Positions 2,278 to 8,732 of a stretch of DNA of 64,000 nucleotides are shown here, one piece after another. Within the stretch, counting starts at the first letter, position 1, and each line of letters opens with the position of its first letter. The notes beneath the pieces are model-generated. The model was not told where the DNA came from. It saw only the letters and a list, made by a program, of their open reading frames with translations, and ran no database searches. The DNA comes from Pseudomonadota bacterium (lineage in GTDB: Bacteria > Bdellovibrionota > UBA1018 > CAIMNF01): NCBI GenBank assembly GCA_027491115.1, contig JAIXWV010000038.1:1-64000 (forward strand), written 5' to 3'. The position numbers were made by a program, and so were the translations under genes.

Positions 2278-2306
2278 TTGATATTCTCCCATGTTTCGGG
2301 TAAGAC
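2278..2306 (+). promoter_or_regulatory. Candidate promoter for the rimP-nusA-infB operon
   Basis: TTGATA (2278-2283), a 17-base spacer and TAAGAC (2301-2306) give a good -35 and a weak -10 in the 200-base gap between two divergent genes. Transcripts would start near 2312 and carry the hairpin at 2340-2370 in their leader. Confidence 0.4.
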
Positions 2307-2339
2307 ACTCAAGGATCCTCAACAACTAGAGTATGGATG

Positions 2340-2370
2340 AGCGGGTTCGGAAGATCCCCGCTTTTTTTTT
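2340..2370 (+). terminator. Intrinsic-terminator-like hairpin in the leader of the rimP operon
   Basis: AGCGGG (2340-2345) pairs with CCCGCT (2357-2362), followed directly by nine T residues (2362-2370). No gene lies upstream on this strand apart from the short leader, so the hairpin sits between the candidate promoter and the first gene, as an attenuator would. The stem is only 6 bp, so efficiency is uncertain. Confidence 0.55.
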
Positions 2371-2375
2371 ACCTT

Positions 2376-3065
2376 ATGGACCATATGACACTGAGTACTA
2401 CAAACATCACAACCGCCATCGCCGACACCGCGCTTTTGAGTCCGGAAGAGCGGCTCACGCGTCATCTAGAGAGCCTGCTGGCCCCGCTGGGTTATGAATT
2501 GGTGGCGATGGAGATCACGAACCATCGTGAAAAGAAACTTTCTCTATACATCGACCTGCTCGGTAAAAACGATGATGGCGTCGGCATCGAAGATTGCGTG
2601 AAAGTGTCTCATGCGTTGGACGCTCCATTGGAAGAGAATGAAGAGCTGAAAGCGATCTTCAAGGGCCCTTACGAACTCGAGGTTTCGTCTCCCGGTATTG
2701 ACCGCCCGCTTCGGAAACCTTCGGACTTCGAGAACTTCCAGGGAGAGGTGGCTCGATTAAACACTTTCCGGCCCTTGACCGGAGAGGAAACTCGGGCACC
2801 TGAATACAGTGCCAAAAATCCGAAACAAAAAAACTTTTACGGAATCCTGAGAGGTTTCGAGTCCGACAGTCGGAGCATCCTGTTCGGAGTGATACCGGAG
2901 GATGGAACCCGTGCCGTGTTCAAAAACAAAAAGTCCAAAGACAAGAAAGCCCCGGAGAAGAAGGAATCCGGGCGAGCGGAAACTCTGATCCGGGTACCCC
3001 TCGAGCTCGTGGCCAAGGCCAATCTCGAACCCATGATCGAAATTCCTGAGAACAAGAACAAATAA
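2376..3065 (+). CDS. rimP: Ribosome maturation factor RimP
   Basis: Cytoplasmic factor for 30S subunit assembly. The core matches RimP: an N-terminal half with LAPLGYELVAMEI and the region around YELEVSSPGIDRPL, which is a family signature, then an SH3-like C-terminal half. At about 230 residues it is longer than the usual 150-170; the extra is a Lys-rich insert (FKNKKSKDKKAPEKKESGR) in the C-terminal domain. The frame is open back to ATG 2337, but that stretch encodes the leader hairpin and T-run, so I prefer ATG 2376; ATG 2385 is also possible. None of these has a strong ribosome-binding site. First gene of an operon with nusA 35 bases downstream, the order seen in many bacteria. Confidence 0.9.
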   Translation: MDHMTLSTTNITTAIADTALLSPEERLTRHLESLLAPLGYELVAMEITNHREKKLSLYIDLLGKNDDGVGIEDCVKVSHALDAPLEENEELKAIFKGPYELEVSSPGIDRPLRKPSDFENFQGEVARLNTFRPLTGEETRAPEYSAKNPKQKNFYGILRGFESDSRSILFGVIPEDGTRAVFKNKKSKDKKAPEKKESGRAETLIRVPLELVAKANLEPMIEIPENKNK

Positions 3066-3100: not shown

Positions 3101-4492
3101 ATGAATCTGATGACAGAATTGAGCCGGGTGATTGAATCCGTAGGCCGCGACCGTGGCATCAAGCGTGAAATCATCGTGAGCGCCATCGAGCAGGCGATCC
3201 TCGCCGCCGCACAAAAGAAGTACGGCCCCCACGCTATTCTCGAGGCCCACTACAACGAGGAATCCGGTGACGTGGATCTCTACCTCTTCAAGAAGGTGGT
3301 CGATAGTGAAGACGACATGCTCGAAGAGTCGGAGGAGATCAAGATCCAGGACGCTCTGGAACTCGATCCCCAGGCCCAAATCGGTGACGAACTCGGTGTG
3401 AAGGTCGAAACCCCCAGCTTCGGCCGGGTGGATGCCCAGACCGCCAAGCAGATCATTTTCCAGAAGGTCCGGGATGCCGAGCGCGACATCATCTTCAACG
3501 AATACCTCCCCTTGAAGGGCGAGATCATCTCCGGGATCGCCCGTCGCATGGAGCGCGGCAATCTGGTGATCGACCTCGGGAAGACCGATGCATTCCTTCC
3601 GAAGAACGAGATCATTCCCGGCGAACTCTACAAGCCGGGTGACCGTGTCCAGGCGATTCTGGTCGATGTGGTGACCACCACCAAGGGTCCCGCACTCTAC
3701 ATCAGCCGGACCAACCCCAAGTACCTCATGAAGCTGTTCGAACAGGAAGTGCCTGAGATCCGTGACGGCATCATCGAAATCAAGCAATGCTCACGCGAGC
3801 CCGGTTCACGCGCCAAGATGGCCGTGATCTCGAAAGACCGTGACATTGATCCGGTCGGCGCATGCGTCGGGATGAAAGGCGTACGCGTCCAGCAGGTCAT
3901 TCAGGAGCTCAAAGGCGAGAAGATCGACATCATTCCTTGGTCCGACAACCCGATGGTTTTCGCCCGTTCTGCCCTGTCTCCTGCAGAAATTTCTTCGATC
4001 CGGATCGACGAGCGCACCAAGGCCATGGAGATCATGGTCGAGGACTCCCAGCTCTCGCTCGCCATCGGCAAGCGAGGTCAGAATGTTCGTCTGGCAGCCC
4101 AAATCACCGGATGGAAACTGGACATCATCTCCAAGACCAAGCTCCAGAAGCGGGTCCAGGATGCCATCACCAACCTGATGAACATCGAAGGAATGAATGA
4201 CACCCAAGCCCGGGCGCTCGCCCAGGTCGGCGTCCTGAATATCCGCCAGCTCTCCGAGACCGGAATCGATAACCTAGCCAAAGTTCCAGGCTTCGAAGAT
4301 CGGGAAGTGGCCGAACGCATGAAGGCCAGAGCCCAGCAATTGGTAGATGAAGGCTCCCCGATTGTGAACGGCGTGCAAGCTCCGACCACCATCGGTGCAG
4401 TCGAGAACGACGCCAAGGCTCAGGCCTCTGAGAAACTGAAAGAAATGATTCAACAAGCTGAAGGCGCCACCGCCGGAGGAACCGCTGAATGA
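3101..4492 (+). CDS. nusA: Transcription termination/antitermination factor NusA
   Basis: RNA polymerase-binding elongation factor controlling pausing, termination and antitermination. Domain order as seen: polymerase-binding N-terminal domain (about 1-125), S1 domain from about residue 140 (GEIISGIARRMERGNLVIDL), KH1 around 250 (GACVGMKGVRVQQV), KH2 around 320 (AIGKRGQNVRLAAQ), then one helix-hairpin-helix-like C-terminal segment (about 350-415). Length 463 is normal for NusA without the duplicated E. coli acidic repeats. Strong ribosome-binding site GAGAGGAGA before ATG 3101. Its stop overlaps the infB start (ATGA), so the two are probably translationally coupled. NusA is known to feed back on its own operon in E. 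coli, which makes the leader hairpin at 2340-2370 relevant. Confidence 0.97.
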   Translation: MNLMTELSRVIESVGRDRGIKREIIVSAIEQAILAAAQKKYGPHAILEAHYNEESGDVDLYLFKKVVDSEDDMLEESEEIKIQDALELDPQAQIGDELGVKVETPSFGRVDAQTAKQIIFQKVRDAERDIIFNEYLPLKGEIISGIARRMERGNLVIDLGKTDAFLPKNEIIPGELYKPGDRVQAILVDVVTTTKGPALYISRTNPKYLMKLFEQEVPEIRDGIIEIKQCSREPGSRAKMAVISKDRDIDPVGACVGMKGVRVQQVIQELKGEKIDIIPWSDNPMVFARSALSPAEISSIRIDERTKAMEIMVEDSQLSLAIGKRGQNVRLAAQITGWKLDIISKTKLQKRVQDAITNLMNIEGMNDTQARALAQVGVLNIRQLSETGIDNLAKVPGFEDREVAERMKARAQQLVDEGSPIVNGVQAPTTIGAVENDAKAQASEKLKEMIQQAEGATAGGTAE

Positions 4493-7368
4493 CGGATCGC
4501 GAACCGCTCAAGGTCTACGAGCTCTCTAAAGAGCTCGGCATTGACTCCATCACCCTGGTCGACAAACTAAACGGGCTCTCTATTGCTGTGAAGAATCACA
4601 TGAGCGAGCTCTCGGACGCCGACGTCGAAAAAGCTCGAACCGCCCTGAAGACCGGCGCCGTGGCGGAAGACACTTCCAAGGCCAAGAAAAGCACCGGAAC
4701 CGGCACGGCGAAAAAAACTGTGACGAAGAAAGCCGCTCCTGCGACCGCGACTCCGGAAGCTCCGAAGGTCGTGGCGAAAACCACGGCTCCGAGCGAAACG
4801 GCTCCGGCACCGAAAACAGCAGCTGTCAGGAAGCGTCCTAGTGCTACGCCGGCCGAGAAACCGGTAGCAGCAGCTCCTGCTGCCGCTGGAGAAACCTCCT
4901 CGAGCAGCTCGACTGTGATCCGCCGTCGGGTTCTCTCCGATGGAGCGACCCAGACTGTGACCTCGACCATCTCGACCACAACCGGAACTGAGTCGGTTCC
5001 TGCTCCGGCTCCCGCTGAAGTGGTACCGGAGACCGTGCTCGAGGCCGCTCCTCAACCCACCTTTGCACCAGAAGAGACACCGGCTGTTGTACCTCCTGTA
5101 GAAACCGGTGGATTTTTGAAGACCGTGGAAGCCCCGAAAACTTCCTCCGAGGGCACTGTTGAAACGGTTCGTACTGAAGTCAAAACCGAAGGTGGGAAGA
5201 CCACCACTTCGATCATCCGCAGGACCGAGATCACGACCTTGACGACATCCAGCTTGAAAGACATCAAGCGGACGGGCGGTCTCCGGATCATCGAACAACC
5301 GAAAATCACTCCGAAATCCGCCATCCGTCCCGGCCTCGACAAAGCAGCACCGGGAACCACGGCGACCGACGGGAAGAAGATCGGTTTCAAGACCGATCGG
5401 GATGGATTCAAATTCGCACGGGTGGACAAGGAAAACCTCGACCGCATGGCCGAGGAAGAAGCCCGCAAGCGCGGCCCCAAGGCCTTTGAAGCCGTGGTGA
5501 AACCTGAAGACGTCAAGTTCTCCGACTACCGGAAGAAAGAGATGATCTTCATTCCCAAGAAGAAGAAGGCACCCGTGGGGAAAGAGACCAAGCGTACCGA
5601 GATCACCGTTGCCGCTGCCCACAAACGGGTGGTGGAAATGGGGGACACCATCAAGGTCTCCGAACTGGCCCAGCAAATGAGTGTCAAAGCGACCGATGTC
5701 ATCAAGAAACTGATGAGCATGGGGACCATGGCCACCATGAACCAGGTGATCGATCTCGACACCGCGACCATCATCGCAGGTGAGTTCCAGTTCGAAGTGA
5801 AAAACATCGCATTCAAGGAACACTCCGTTCTCGAGCAGGGAGAAGACCGGGAAGAAGATCTGCTTCCTCGTCCTCCGGTGGTCACCATCATGGGTCACGT
5901 CGACCACGGGAAAACCACCCTCCTCGATTCGATCCGTGAGGCCAATGTGGCCGAAGGGGAAGCCGGCGGAATCACCCAGCACATCGGTGCCTATACCATC
6001 GAAAAAGACGGGAAGATGATCACCTTCATCGACACTCCCGGCCACGAAGCGTTCACGAACATGCGTGCTCGCGGAGCGAACGCCACGGACATCGTGATTC
6101 TGGTGGTCTCGGCCGATGACGGGGTGATGCCTCAAACCCGTGAAGCTCTATCGCACGCGAAGGCGGCGGGAGTGCCCATCATCGTCGCCGTGAACAAGAT
6201 CGACAAACCCGGAGCCAACCCCGAAAAAATCAAGCAGGCGCTGGCTGAACTCGACCTCCTCGCAGAAGACTGGGGCGGAGAAACGATGTTTGTCCCCGTG
6301 TCGGCGTTGAAAAAAACCAATCTCGACAAATTGCTCGAGAGCATCCTTCTGGTGGCTGAAGTCCAAGACCTCAAGGCAAATCAAAAAGCCTTGGCAACCG
6401 GCGTAGTCCTGGAGTCCAGGATCGAAAAGGGACGTGGCCCTGTGGCCAGCGCCCTCGTCGACCGGGGAACTCTCCGGATCGGTGATATCGTGGTCAGCGG
6501 AACCCAATGGGGTCGCGTGAAGGCCATGACCAACCACCTCTCGGAGTCCGTGAAAGACGTTCTTCCTGGCATGGCAGCCGAGATTCTCGGTCTCGACGGC
6601 GTTCCGAATGCGGGTGACCGCTTCGACGTGGTCAAAGACGAGAAAGCGGCGACCACACTCGTGGACCACCGGATCCAGGCCGCTCGTGACAAGAAATCGA
6701 TGAGTTCGAAGGCTTCCATGGAAGATCTGTTCGCCCGCGCACAAGCTGGGGAACTCAAAGAACTTCGTGTGGTCCTGAAGGCGGACGTTTTCGGCTCGGT
6801 GGAAGCGGTCAAAGACTCCCTCACCAAGCAGTCCACCGAAAAAGTGAAGGTCAAAGTGATTCACTCCGCAGCCGGTGGGATCACCGAAAGCGACGTGATG
6901 CTCGCGAACGCATCTGATGCGATCATCATCGGCTTCAACGTTCGTCCGGAAACCAAAGCCCGGGCCATCGCTGAATCCGAGCATATCGAGATCAAGTGCT
7001 ACAACATCATCTACGAACTGCTGGACGATGTGAAACTGGCCATGGCCGGATTGCTCGAGAAGAAGAAGGTCGAGACCTACCTCGGTCGGGCCGAAGTCCG
7101 TCAGACTTTCAGCGTGCCGAAGGCCGGAACCATTGCAGGTTGCTTCGTGATCGACGGAAAGCTCGTGCGGAACGCGCAAGTCCGCTTGCTGCGTGATAGC
7201 CGGATCATCTTCGACGGGAAGTTGAACTCTTTGAAGCGCTTCAAAGACGACGCCAAAGAAGTGGCCCAAGGATATGAGTGCGGGATGGGTATCGACGGGT
7301 ACAACGACATCAAGATCGGTGACTTGATCGAGGCCTATCAGATCGACATGGTCGCTCAGGAACTTTGA
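4489..7368 (+). CDS. infB: Translation initiation factor IF-2
   Basis: GTPase that delivers initiator fMet-tRNA to the 30S subunit and promotes subunit joining. 959 residues. An IF2_N motif at about 5-50 is followed by a long Ala/Pro/Thr/Lys-rich disordered linker (about 55-340), a second IF2_N motif (about 380-430), the G domain with G1 [10 protein letters not shown] (about 468), DTPGHEAF and NKID, then IF-2 domains II-IV with [11 protein letters not shown] and the C-terminal initiator-tRNA domain. The low-complexity linker creates very long antisense open frames that are not genes. ATGA overlap with nusA; rbfA follows 12 bases downstream. Confidence 0.98.
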
Positions 7369-7380
7369 TCGGAGACCCCC

Positions 7381-7764
7381 ATGGACGCAATCAGGATCCA
7401 ACGGATCCAATCGATGATGAAGGACGAGCTCACCCTCCTGATCAACCGGGAACTGAAGGATCCTCGGATTCCGTCGGTCTCGGTGACCAATGTCGAGCTC
7501 ACACGGGATGCCAAACAGGCCACGGTGTTCATTTCGATCCTGTCGCTGAATCAAACCAGTGCGGACCCGGAACTGATGCAGAGTTGCCTGGCCGCTCTCG
7601 AGAAGTCCAAGGGCTATCTGAAGAAGTCGATTTCGAAGATCATGCAGCTTCGATTCGTGCCCGAGCTCCTCTTCCGTGAGGACAAGGGTCTGGAGAACAC
7701 CCTCCGGGTTCATGAGTTGTTGAAGCAGATTTCAGACGAGAAAAAACCGAAGCCATCGGAATGA
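7381..7764 (+). CDS. rbfA: Ribosome-binding factor A
   Basis: Cold-shock 30S maturation factor with a KH-like fold. 127 residues, the typical size. Family features include the N-terminal RIQRIQSMMKDELTLLINRE helix, LKDPRI, and the C-terminal region LRFVPELLFREDKGLE. Ribosome-binding site GGAGA lies 7 bases before ATG 7381. The stop codon overlaps the truB ATG (ATGA). Confidence 0.96.
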   Translation: MDAIRIQRIQSMMKDELTLLINRELKDPRIPSVSVTNVELTRDAKQATVFISILSLNQTSADPELMQSCLAALEKSKGYLKKSISKIMQLRFVPELLFREDKGLENTLRVHELLKQISDEKKPKPSE

Positions 7765-8732
7765 GCGTTCAGCCGCTGCCTCCCGGAGCCTTCCTGATCG
7801 ACAAGCCGAAGGACTTCACCTCGAGCGATGTGGTGAACCGTCTGAAGCGCGTCTTGATTCGGAAAGGGTGTGCCCCGAAGAGCTTCAAGATCGGGCACGG
7901 AGGAACCCTCGACCCCTTCGCGACGGGCGTTCTTGCCGTACTGGTCGGAGAAGCGACCAAGCTCGCAGACTGCTACCTCCATTCGACCAAGTCTTACTCG
8001 GGAAGAATCCGCTTGGGGGAGCGCAAGGACACAGGGGACCTGACCGGAGAAACCCTGGAGCAGGCTCCGGTTCCGGACTTGAATCCGGAACAGTGGCAGG
8101 ATCTCGCAAAAGATTTCTCTTTGGAGCCTTATTGGCAGACTCCTCCGATGTATTCGGCCAAGAAGCTGGGGGGCCAGGCCCTCCATCAACTGGCCCGGAA
8201 AGGGATCGAGGTGAAGCGCGATCCGATACTGAAGCGGATCGACTCTTTCCGGATCCTGTCGAAAGAACAGGGATCCCTTGAGTTCTCCGTGACCTGTGAG
8301 AGTGGCACCTATGTCCGCGTTCTGGCCGAGGATCTCGCGCGAAAAGCAGGTACCCTCGCCTACCTCGACCGATTGGAACGGACCGCCTCGAGTGATTTGC
8401 GACTCTCTTCCTGTGATTCTTTGGACATAAGTGCCCAACAGATTGAAGAGGGTGTCCCCTTCACGGATTTCAAGAACTTCATTCCGCTGGGTTCACTTGG
8501 GACCCACCTGCCACGGATCGAGCTCAAAGGGTTCGAGCTCTCCCGGATCCGGAGCGGTGTCCCGGCTGAAATCGAACGCCTTCTCGGGATGGCGGATCGA
8601 GCAAACAGCATTTCCCGCTACCTGATCGCAGGAGTACATGGGAATCCGGTAGCCCTTCTCGAGAGACCGGATGCCGGGCATCCATTCCGTTTGCAGAGGA
8701 TTTTCGTCCATGAAACGCAAAACCCGGCTTGA
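7761..8732 (+). CDS. truB: tRNA pseudouridine(55) synthase TruB
   Basis: Converts U55 to pseudouridine in the T-loop of tRNAs. 323 residues. The catalytic motif GHGGTLDPFATGVL places the nucleophile at Asp51. FLIDKPKDFTSSDVV near the start and MYSAKKLGGQALHQLARKG are also characteristic, and a C-terminal PUA-like segment completes the protein. Overlaps rbfA by 4 bases and the recX-like gene downstream by 23. Confidence 0.96.
   Translation: MSVQPLPPGAFLIDKPKDFTSSDVVNRLKRVLIRKGCAPKSFKIGHGGTLDPFATGVLAVLVGEATKLADCYLHSTKSYSGRIRLGERKDTGDLTGETLEQAPVPDLNPEQWQDLAKDFSLEPYWQTPPMYSAKKLGGQALHQLARKGIEVKRDPILKRIDSFRILSKEQGSLEFSVTCESGTYVRVLAEDLARKAGTLAYLDRLERTASSDLRLSSCDSLDISAQQIEEGVPFTDFKNFIPLGSLGTHLPRIELKGFELSRIRSGVPAEIERLLGMADRANSISRYLIAGVHGNPVALLERPDAGHPFRLQRIFVHETQNPA

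Follow-up and report, generated by a model that had tools for sequence, protein, structure and literature searches.

The leader of the rimP-nusA-infB operon in the window, the 64,000-nucleotide stretch of DNA that we analyzed, carries a compact hairpin followed by nine consecutive T. We consider it probable (roughly 60%), from its sequence and by analogy with other bacteria, that this element is an attenuator of the rimP-leader type, at which premature termination would limit the operon and NusA would be the likeliest controller. Its sequence, its fold, its place, its conservation and the changes that keep its stem are established here. The features on which the argument depends are as follows:

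837–2129, − strand: divergent gene of at least 431 residues in the stretch searched, beginning near 2129 and running leftwards
2278–2306, + strand: promoter-like site, TTGATA (2278–2283), 17 bases, TAAGAC (2301–2306); its place is kept in the genus
2313–2318, + strand: GGATCC, which pairs with GGGTTC (2343–2348) if the 3′ arm is absent, not beyond chance
2339–2363, + strand: terminator-like hairpin with outer stem GAGCGGG/CCCGCTT, recognized by sequence, fold, conservation and pair changes
2362–2370, + strand: run of nine T (U tract), from the sequence and a terminator scan of the window
2376–3065, + strand: rimP, start at ATG 2376 or ATG 2385 (RimP_N, 1.9e-14)
3101–4492, + strand: nusA (Pfam NusA_N, S1 and KH domains), the presumed controller
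4489–7368, + strand: infB (Pfam IF-2 and GTPase domains)
7381–7764, + strand: rbfA (Pfam RBFA), downstream on the same strand
7761–8732, + strand: truB (Pfam TruB_N), downstream on the same strand

The outer stem comprises seven pairs (2339–2345 with 2357–2363), followed by an inner UC/GA helix and a GGAA loop, with a predicted energy of −12.2 kcal/mol. Reading AGCGGG at 2340–2345 and CCCGCT at 2357–2362 from the sequence confirmed the hairpin and nine Ts that a preliminary description had noted before rimP. Folded with short flanks (2334–2372), the hairpin scores −12.9 (z −2.24), and 7 of 200 shuffles are at least as stable; the excess is lost over 2300–2400 (z −0.61, 48/200 shuffles) and again over 2312–2370 (z −0.86), which makes folding energy weak evidence by itself. 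The window contains 33 terminator-like sites on both strands (mfe of −7 or lower, six or more T in nine), and of these the rimP-leader hairpin alone has T at all nine positions. A simple terminator and promoter scanner listed neither this hairpin, which exceeds its loop limit of 8, nor any promoter in the rimP leader. The 3′ ends of a short leader RNA would be expected at about 2365–2370. A coding role for the hairpin (ORF from ATG 2337) was rejected, as no reading frame is kept across the genus; the RimP frame that crosses the hairpin begins with ATG in three of the 12 members of the genus (L001, L002, L046) and with TTG in L005, and the other 8 have no in-frame start codon upstream of the hairpin.

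The element is conserved in the phylum, which answers a check that the same description had proposed. We searched 97 genomes, found RimP in 79 and took leaders from 69, one of which (L047) is left out of the counts for want of a tblastn match, though the covariance model described below has a site beside its rimP. By a single rule that asks for an mfe of −7 or lower and six or more T in nine, no farther than 320 bases ahead of the RimP core, a terminator is present in 64 of these 68 leaders, far above the dinucleotide shuffles (39/680); the rule finds none in L045, L054, L058 and L059. With the rule unchanged, a second set of 40 further phylum genomes, hand-picked from 136 matching and mostly one per genus, yielded a terminator in 36 leaders and none in 4 (shuffles 33/400). 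The motif GGG..CCC lies in the hairpin of 54 of the 68 leaders, and in 27 of the 36 terminators from the further genomes.

Pairing in the stem is maintained as its sequence changes. In alignment A1, built from a selection of 51 hairpins, 49 of them distinct, 94.9% of cells are paired and both-sided changes occur in 5 of 8 pairs (29 cells), values that were each reached in 0 of 500 shuffles; further pair types are not unusually numerous (171/500). The best column holds U-A 18, C-G 17 and U-G 14 times, and slid pairings give far lower scores. The innermost pair is absent in 15 of the 49 distinct rows. Because the alignment omits six of 57 listed hairpins (L013, L018, L030, L033, L037 and L051), of which L018, L030 and L037 carry GAG, its near-constant GGG is partly the result of selection; the list of 57 itself omits L054, L042, L041, L053, L055, L066, L067 and L070. 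A covariance model, R1, has a match at E ≤ 1 in 53 of 58 genomes, not all at rimP, and its matches to these leaders are circular because it was built from them. Among its three matches in the window's own genome the rimP leader ranks second, behind a site on contig 44 that seems to follow directly on a + strand reading frame; the exact hairpin pattern occurs at these same two sites. In 25 sources of named loci R1 finds 10 sites at E ≤ 1, with no match to the E. coli leader or to loci titled as alphaproteobacteria.

Upstream of the hairpin lies TTGATA-17-TAAGAC, a site of weak promoter consensus, from which transcription would start near 2313 if it is used as a promoter. In a fixed-spacing test devised after the sequences had been looked at, 11 of 12 leaders in the genus have TTGNNN-17-TANNNN ending 29–35 bases ahead of the hairpin (shuffles 102/600), and with spacers of 16–18 a promoter-like site is present in 24 of 30 leaders of family f2 (188/1500) and 19 of 22 others (257/1100). 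A sigma-70 weight scan gave only a mild excess, with a mean of 8.0 vs 6.9 in shuffles, and placed 6 of 64 leaders over the 95% threshold set by shuffles (both promoter analyses cover 64 of the 65 hairpins detected, as one had too short a flank). Within the window the weight scan favors another site, ATGACT-17-TATTCT, whose end lies 51 bases ahead of the hairpin; unlike this favorite, TTGATA-17-TAAGAC keeps its form and place across the genus.

The leader fits a described class. Passages of Naville and Gautheret (2010; PMC2965389) present rimP-leader as their top-ranked predicted attenuator, name NusA as its best candidate controller, and cite earlier E. coli studies that found the operon to be repressed by NusA. 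As far as those passages describe it, the class shares with the window its place in the leader of rimP-nusA-infB and a short hairpin with a G-rich 5′ arm, a C-rich 3′ arm and then a U stretch; the 5 bases to ATG 2376, or 14 to ATG 2385, fall within the published range of 4–130, and a large extra element is not found here. The published core is GGGc...gCCC, whereas the window has GGGT...CCC with a bulge: the c-g pair next to GGG/CCC is absent (T2346, C2356), though formed in 34 of the 49 distinct rows of A1, and GGGC...GCCC is present in most f2 relatives. We file the element with this class because place, arms, U tract and distance fit, with one core pair differing. Since the hairpin sits between a conserved promoter-like site and rimP, is conserved in the phylum, is faced by no upstream gene in the window, and corresponds to an attenuator class already published for this operon (PMC2965389, in the part cited), comparison supports attenuation well, as had been proposed from the sequence.

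Control by NusA is plausible by analogy with B. subtilis and E. coli. According to parts of a review (PMC12288461), B. subtilis NusA is autoregulated through NusA-stimulated termination in the nusA leader; there, as here, a terminator lies in the leader of a nusA-bearing operon, but the stimulation demonstrated in B. subtilis is inferred in our case. In B. subtilis without NusA and NusG, just 12% of intrinsic terminators are independent, as given in an excerpt of PMC8060035. For E. coli, a passage of PMC6511841 reports two terminators upstream of rimP and self-control by NusA. At the corresponding place before rimP, E. coli K-12 has GGGCTTTAGGCCC followed by seven T. Mondal et al. (2016) reportedly name weak terminators as the main targets of NusA, and control of the B. 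subtilis nusA leader reportedly works without an antiterminator structure. The metY-rimP interval of E. coli K-12 (L113) contains tandem terminator-like hairpins, CCCCGATTTATCGGGG + T and GGGCTTTAGGCCC + T, and PMC2965389, in the portion concerned, includes tandem hairpins before rimP for gammaproteobacteria. Excerpts of two other papers mention lower expression of rimP fusions in a Rho mutant, with no explanation in the excerpt (PMC7815308), and the rimP leader among ProQ-bound small RNAs derived from attenuators (PMC5391140); the latter implies that a short leader RNA exists in enterobacteria.

The Rfam family of the gammaproteobacterial rimP leader, RF01770, is likewise a rimP leader, whose E. 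coli member ends in GGGC...GCCC and seven T, but it has 102 positions and a second upstream hairpin. It gave no match in 2180–2480 up to E 10 (required score 47 bits), and only two sub-threshold matches in the window's own genome, both on contig 4; the E. coli control scored 102 bits. Rfam returned nothing at gathering level for the leader, and the best weak match, the L20 leader, was set aside at 19.1 bits vs 58.7 needed. A literature search joining NusA, rimP and Bdellovibrio found no paper.

In the mechanism that we propose, RNA polymerase would start near 2313 and read a short leader; the hairpin would fold and the U tract would release part of the polymerases near 2365–2370, giving a leader RNA of about 55–60 bases, while the remaining polymerases would continue into rimP and nusA. 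NusA, the product of the second gene, would most likely raise pausing and release at the hairpin, so that much NusA would lower its own operon. Use of the promoter, termination in the cell and this feedback are what we infer from the comparisons above, and the S1 and KH domains of the operon's NusA count in favor of the feedback.

The preliminary description had also suggested that an upstream GGATC could pair with GATCC in the hairpin. Both sequences are present (GGATCC at 2313–2318, GATCC at 2353–2357), but the alternative fold found no support: neither GGATC with GATCC nor GGATCC with GGGTTC does better than shuffled sequence in the genus. Pairing of GGATCC with GGGTTC in the window without the 3′ arm has z −0.14, and across the genus the upstream part and the 5′ arm pair with a mean z of −0.04 (n=12). 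A second test of this pairing on 63 leaders (L054 and L042 left out) gave a mean z of −0.27 (s.e. 0.20, n=13) for the genus plus one further genus of its family. Family f2 shows a weak excess (mean z −0.69, s.e. 0.19, n=30; second test −0.70, s.e. 0.16) among sequences that are related, not independent. Upstream parts also suit the arms of their own family better (interaction −2.04; shuffles −0.06, s.d. 0.56, 0/100), an effect that comes mostly from f2. A GGTCAC- or GGTTCAC-like element, a pattern picked after looking, lies a few bases before the stem in 21 of 30 f2 leaders (carriers include L014, L016, L019, L020, L022, L023, L030 and L037) and can pair with the 5′ arm.

Among other explanations, a hairpin that ends an upstream transcription unit, or that arose by chance, is very improbable. 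Shuffles do yield such a site at the rate given above, but conservation far exceeds it. Several distant families have their longest upstream ORF on the strand of rimP, so that in these the hairpin may also end an upstream unit; in the window, however, the upstream neighbor (no Pfam match at E 0.001) is on the − strand and points away, bearing out the earlier remark that no upstream gene needs termination here, and the promoter-like site intervenes. In all 11 loci of the genus whose flank is long enough, the longest upstream ORF is divergent, and the same holds for 14 of the 15 f2 loci that offer 1300–1500 upstream bases. A terminator of fixed leak, setting the operon level without feedback by NusA or another signal, is a more serious competitor, if still unlikely. 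Conservation of the terminator and the promoter site fits it equally, the genus has no antiterminator beyond chance, and the perfect U tract means that the hairpin could act without NusA. Against it stand the response of the B. subtilis nusA operon leader to NusA (PMC12288461, in the parts noted) and the retention of GGG..CCC in most leaders, which hints at recognition, though terminators favor G+C anyway.

It is rather improbable that the attenuator answers a different signal, such as RimP, ribosome assembly, cold or a competing RNA fold. The f2 pairing excess and the own-family fit of upstream parts to arms would suit such a signal; yet the excess is absent in the window's genus, and both effects are subject to the relatedness of the f2 sequences. 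We likewise give small odds to a related reading for this order of Bdellovibrionota, in which a lineage-specific element between promoter and hairpin (resembling GGTCAC in one family and GATCC in the window's genus) serves as a weak antiterminator by mimicking the 3′ arm, or binds NusA or another protein; if true, the leader would be a two-state RNA switch rather than a bare terminator.

Under the reading that we prefer, a NusA-responsive attenuator, the element is a further case of an established switch, since signals of this kind have been reported from other bacteria. With it, the rimP-leader attenuator reaches a little-studied phylum, where most of the leaders examined carry it. This lends support to the idea that stopping transcription early, ahead of nusA and infB, is ancient or has been kept repeatedly. 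The leader is very compact, and suited to testing NusA feedback.

The nearest NusA relatives in named genomes are metagenome-assembled and mostly titled Bdellovibrionales, Oligoflexia or Bdellovibrionota; a few are titled otherwise (e.g., Nitrosovibrio), and these titles may be wrong. Inspection by eye of 38 named loci from the NusA search (L074 and L088, too short upstream, were not counted) revealed a similar hairpin, GTGGGC..GCCCAC + T, in Binataceae-type bins. In L053 and L055, from the same class but another order, the rimP terminator has a pyrimidine-rich 5′ arm, of the GAGCTTCTC..GAGGGGCTT type, without the GGG core.
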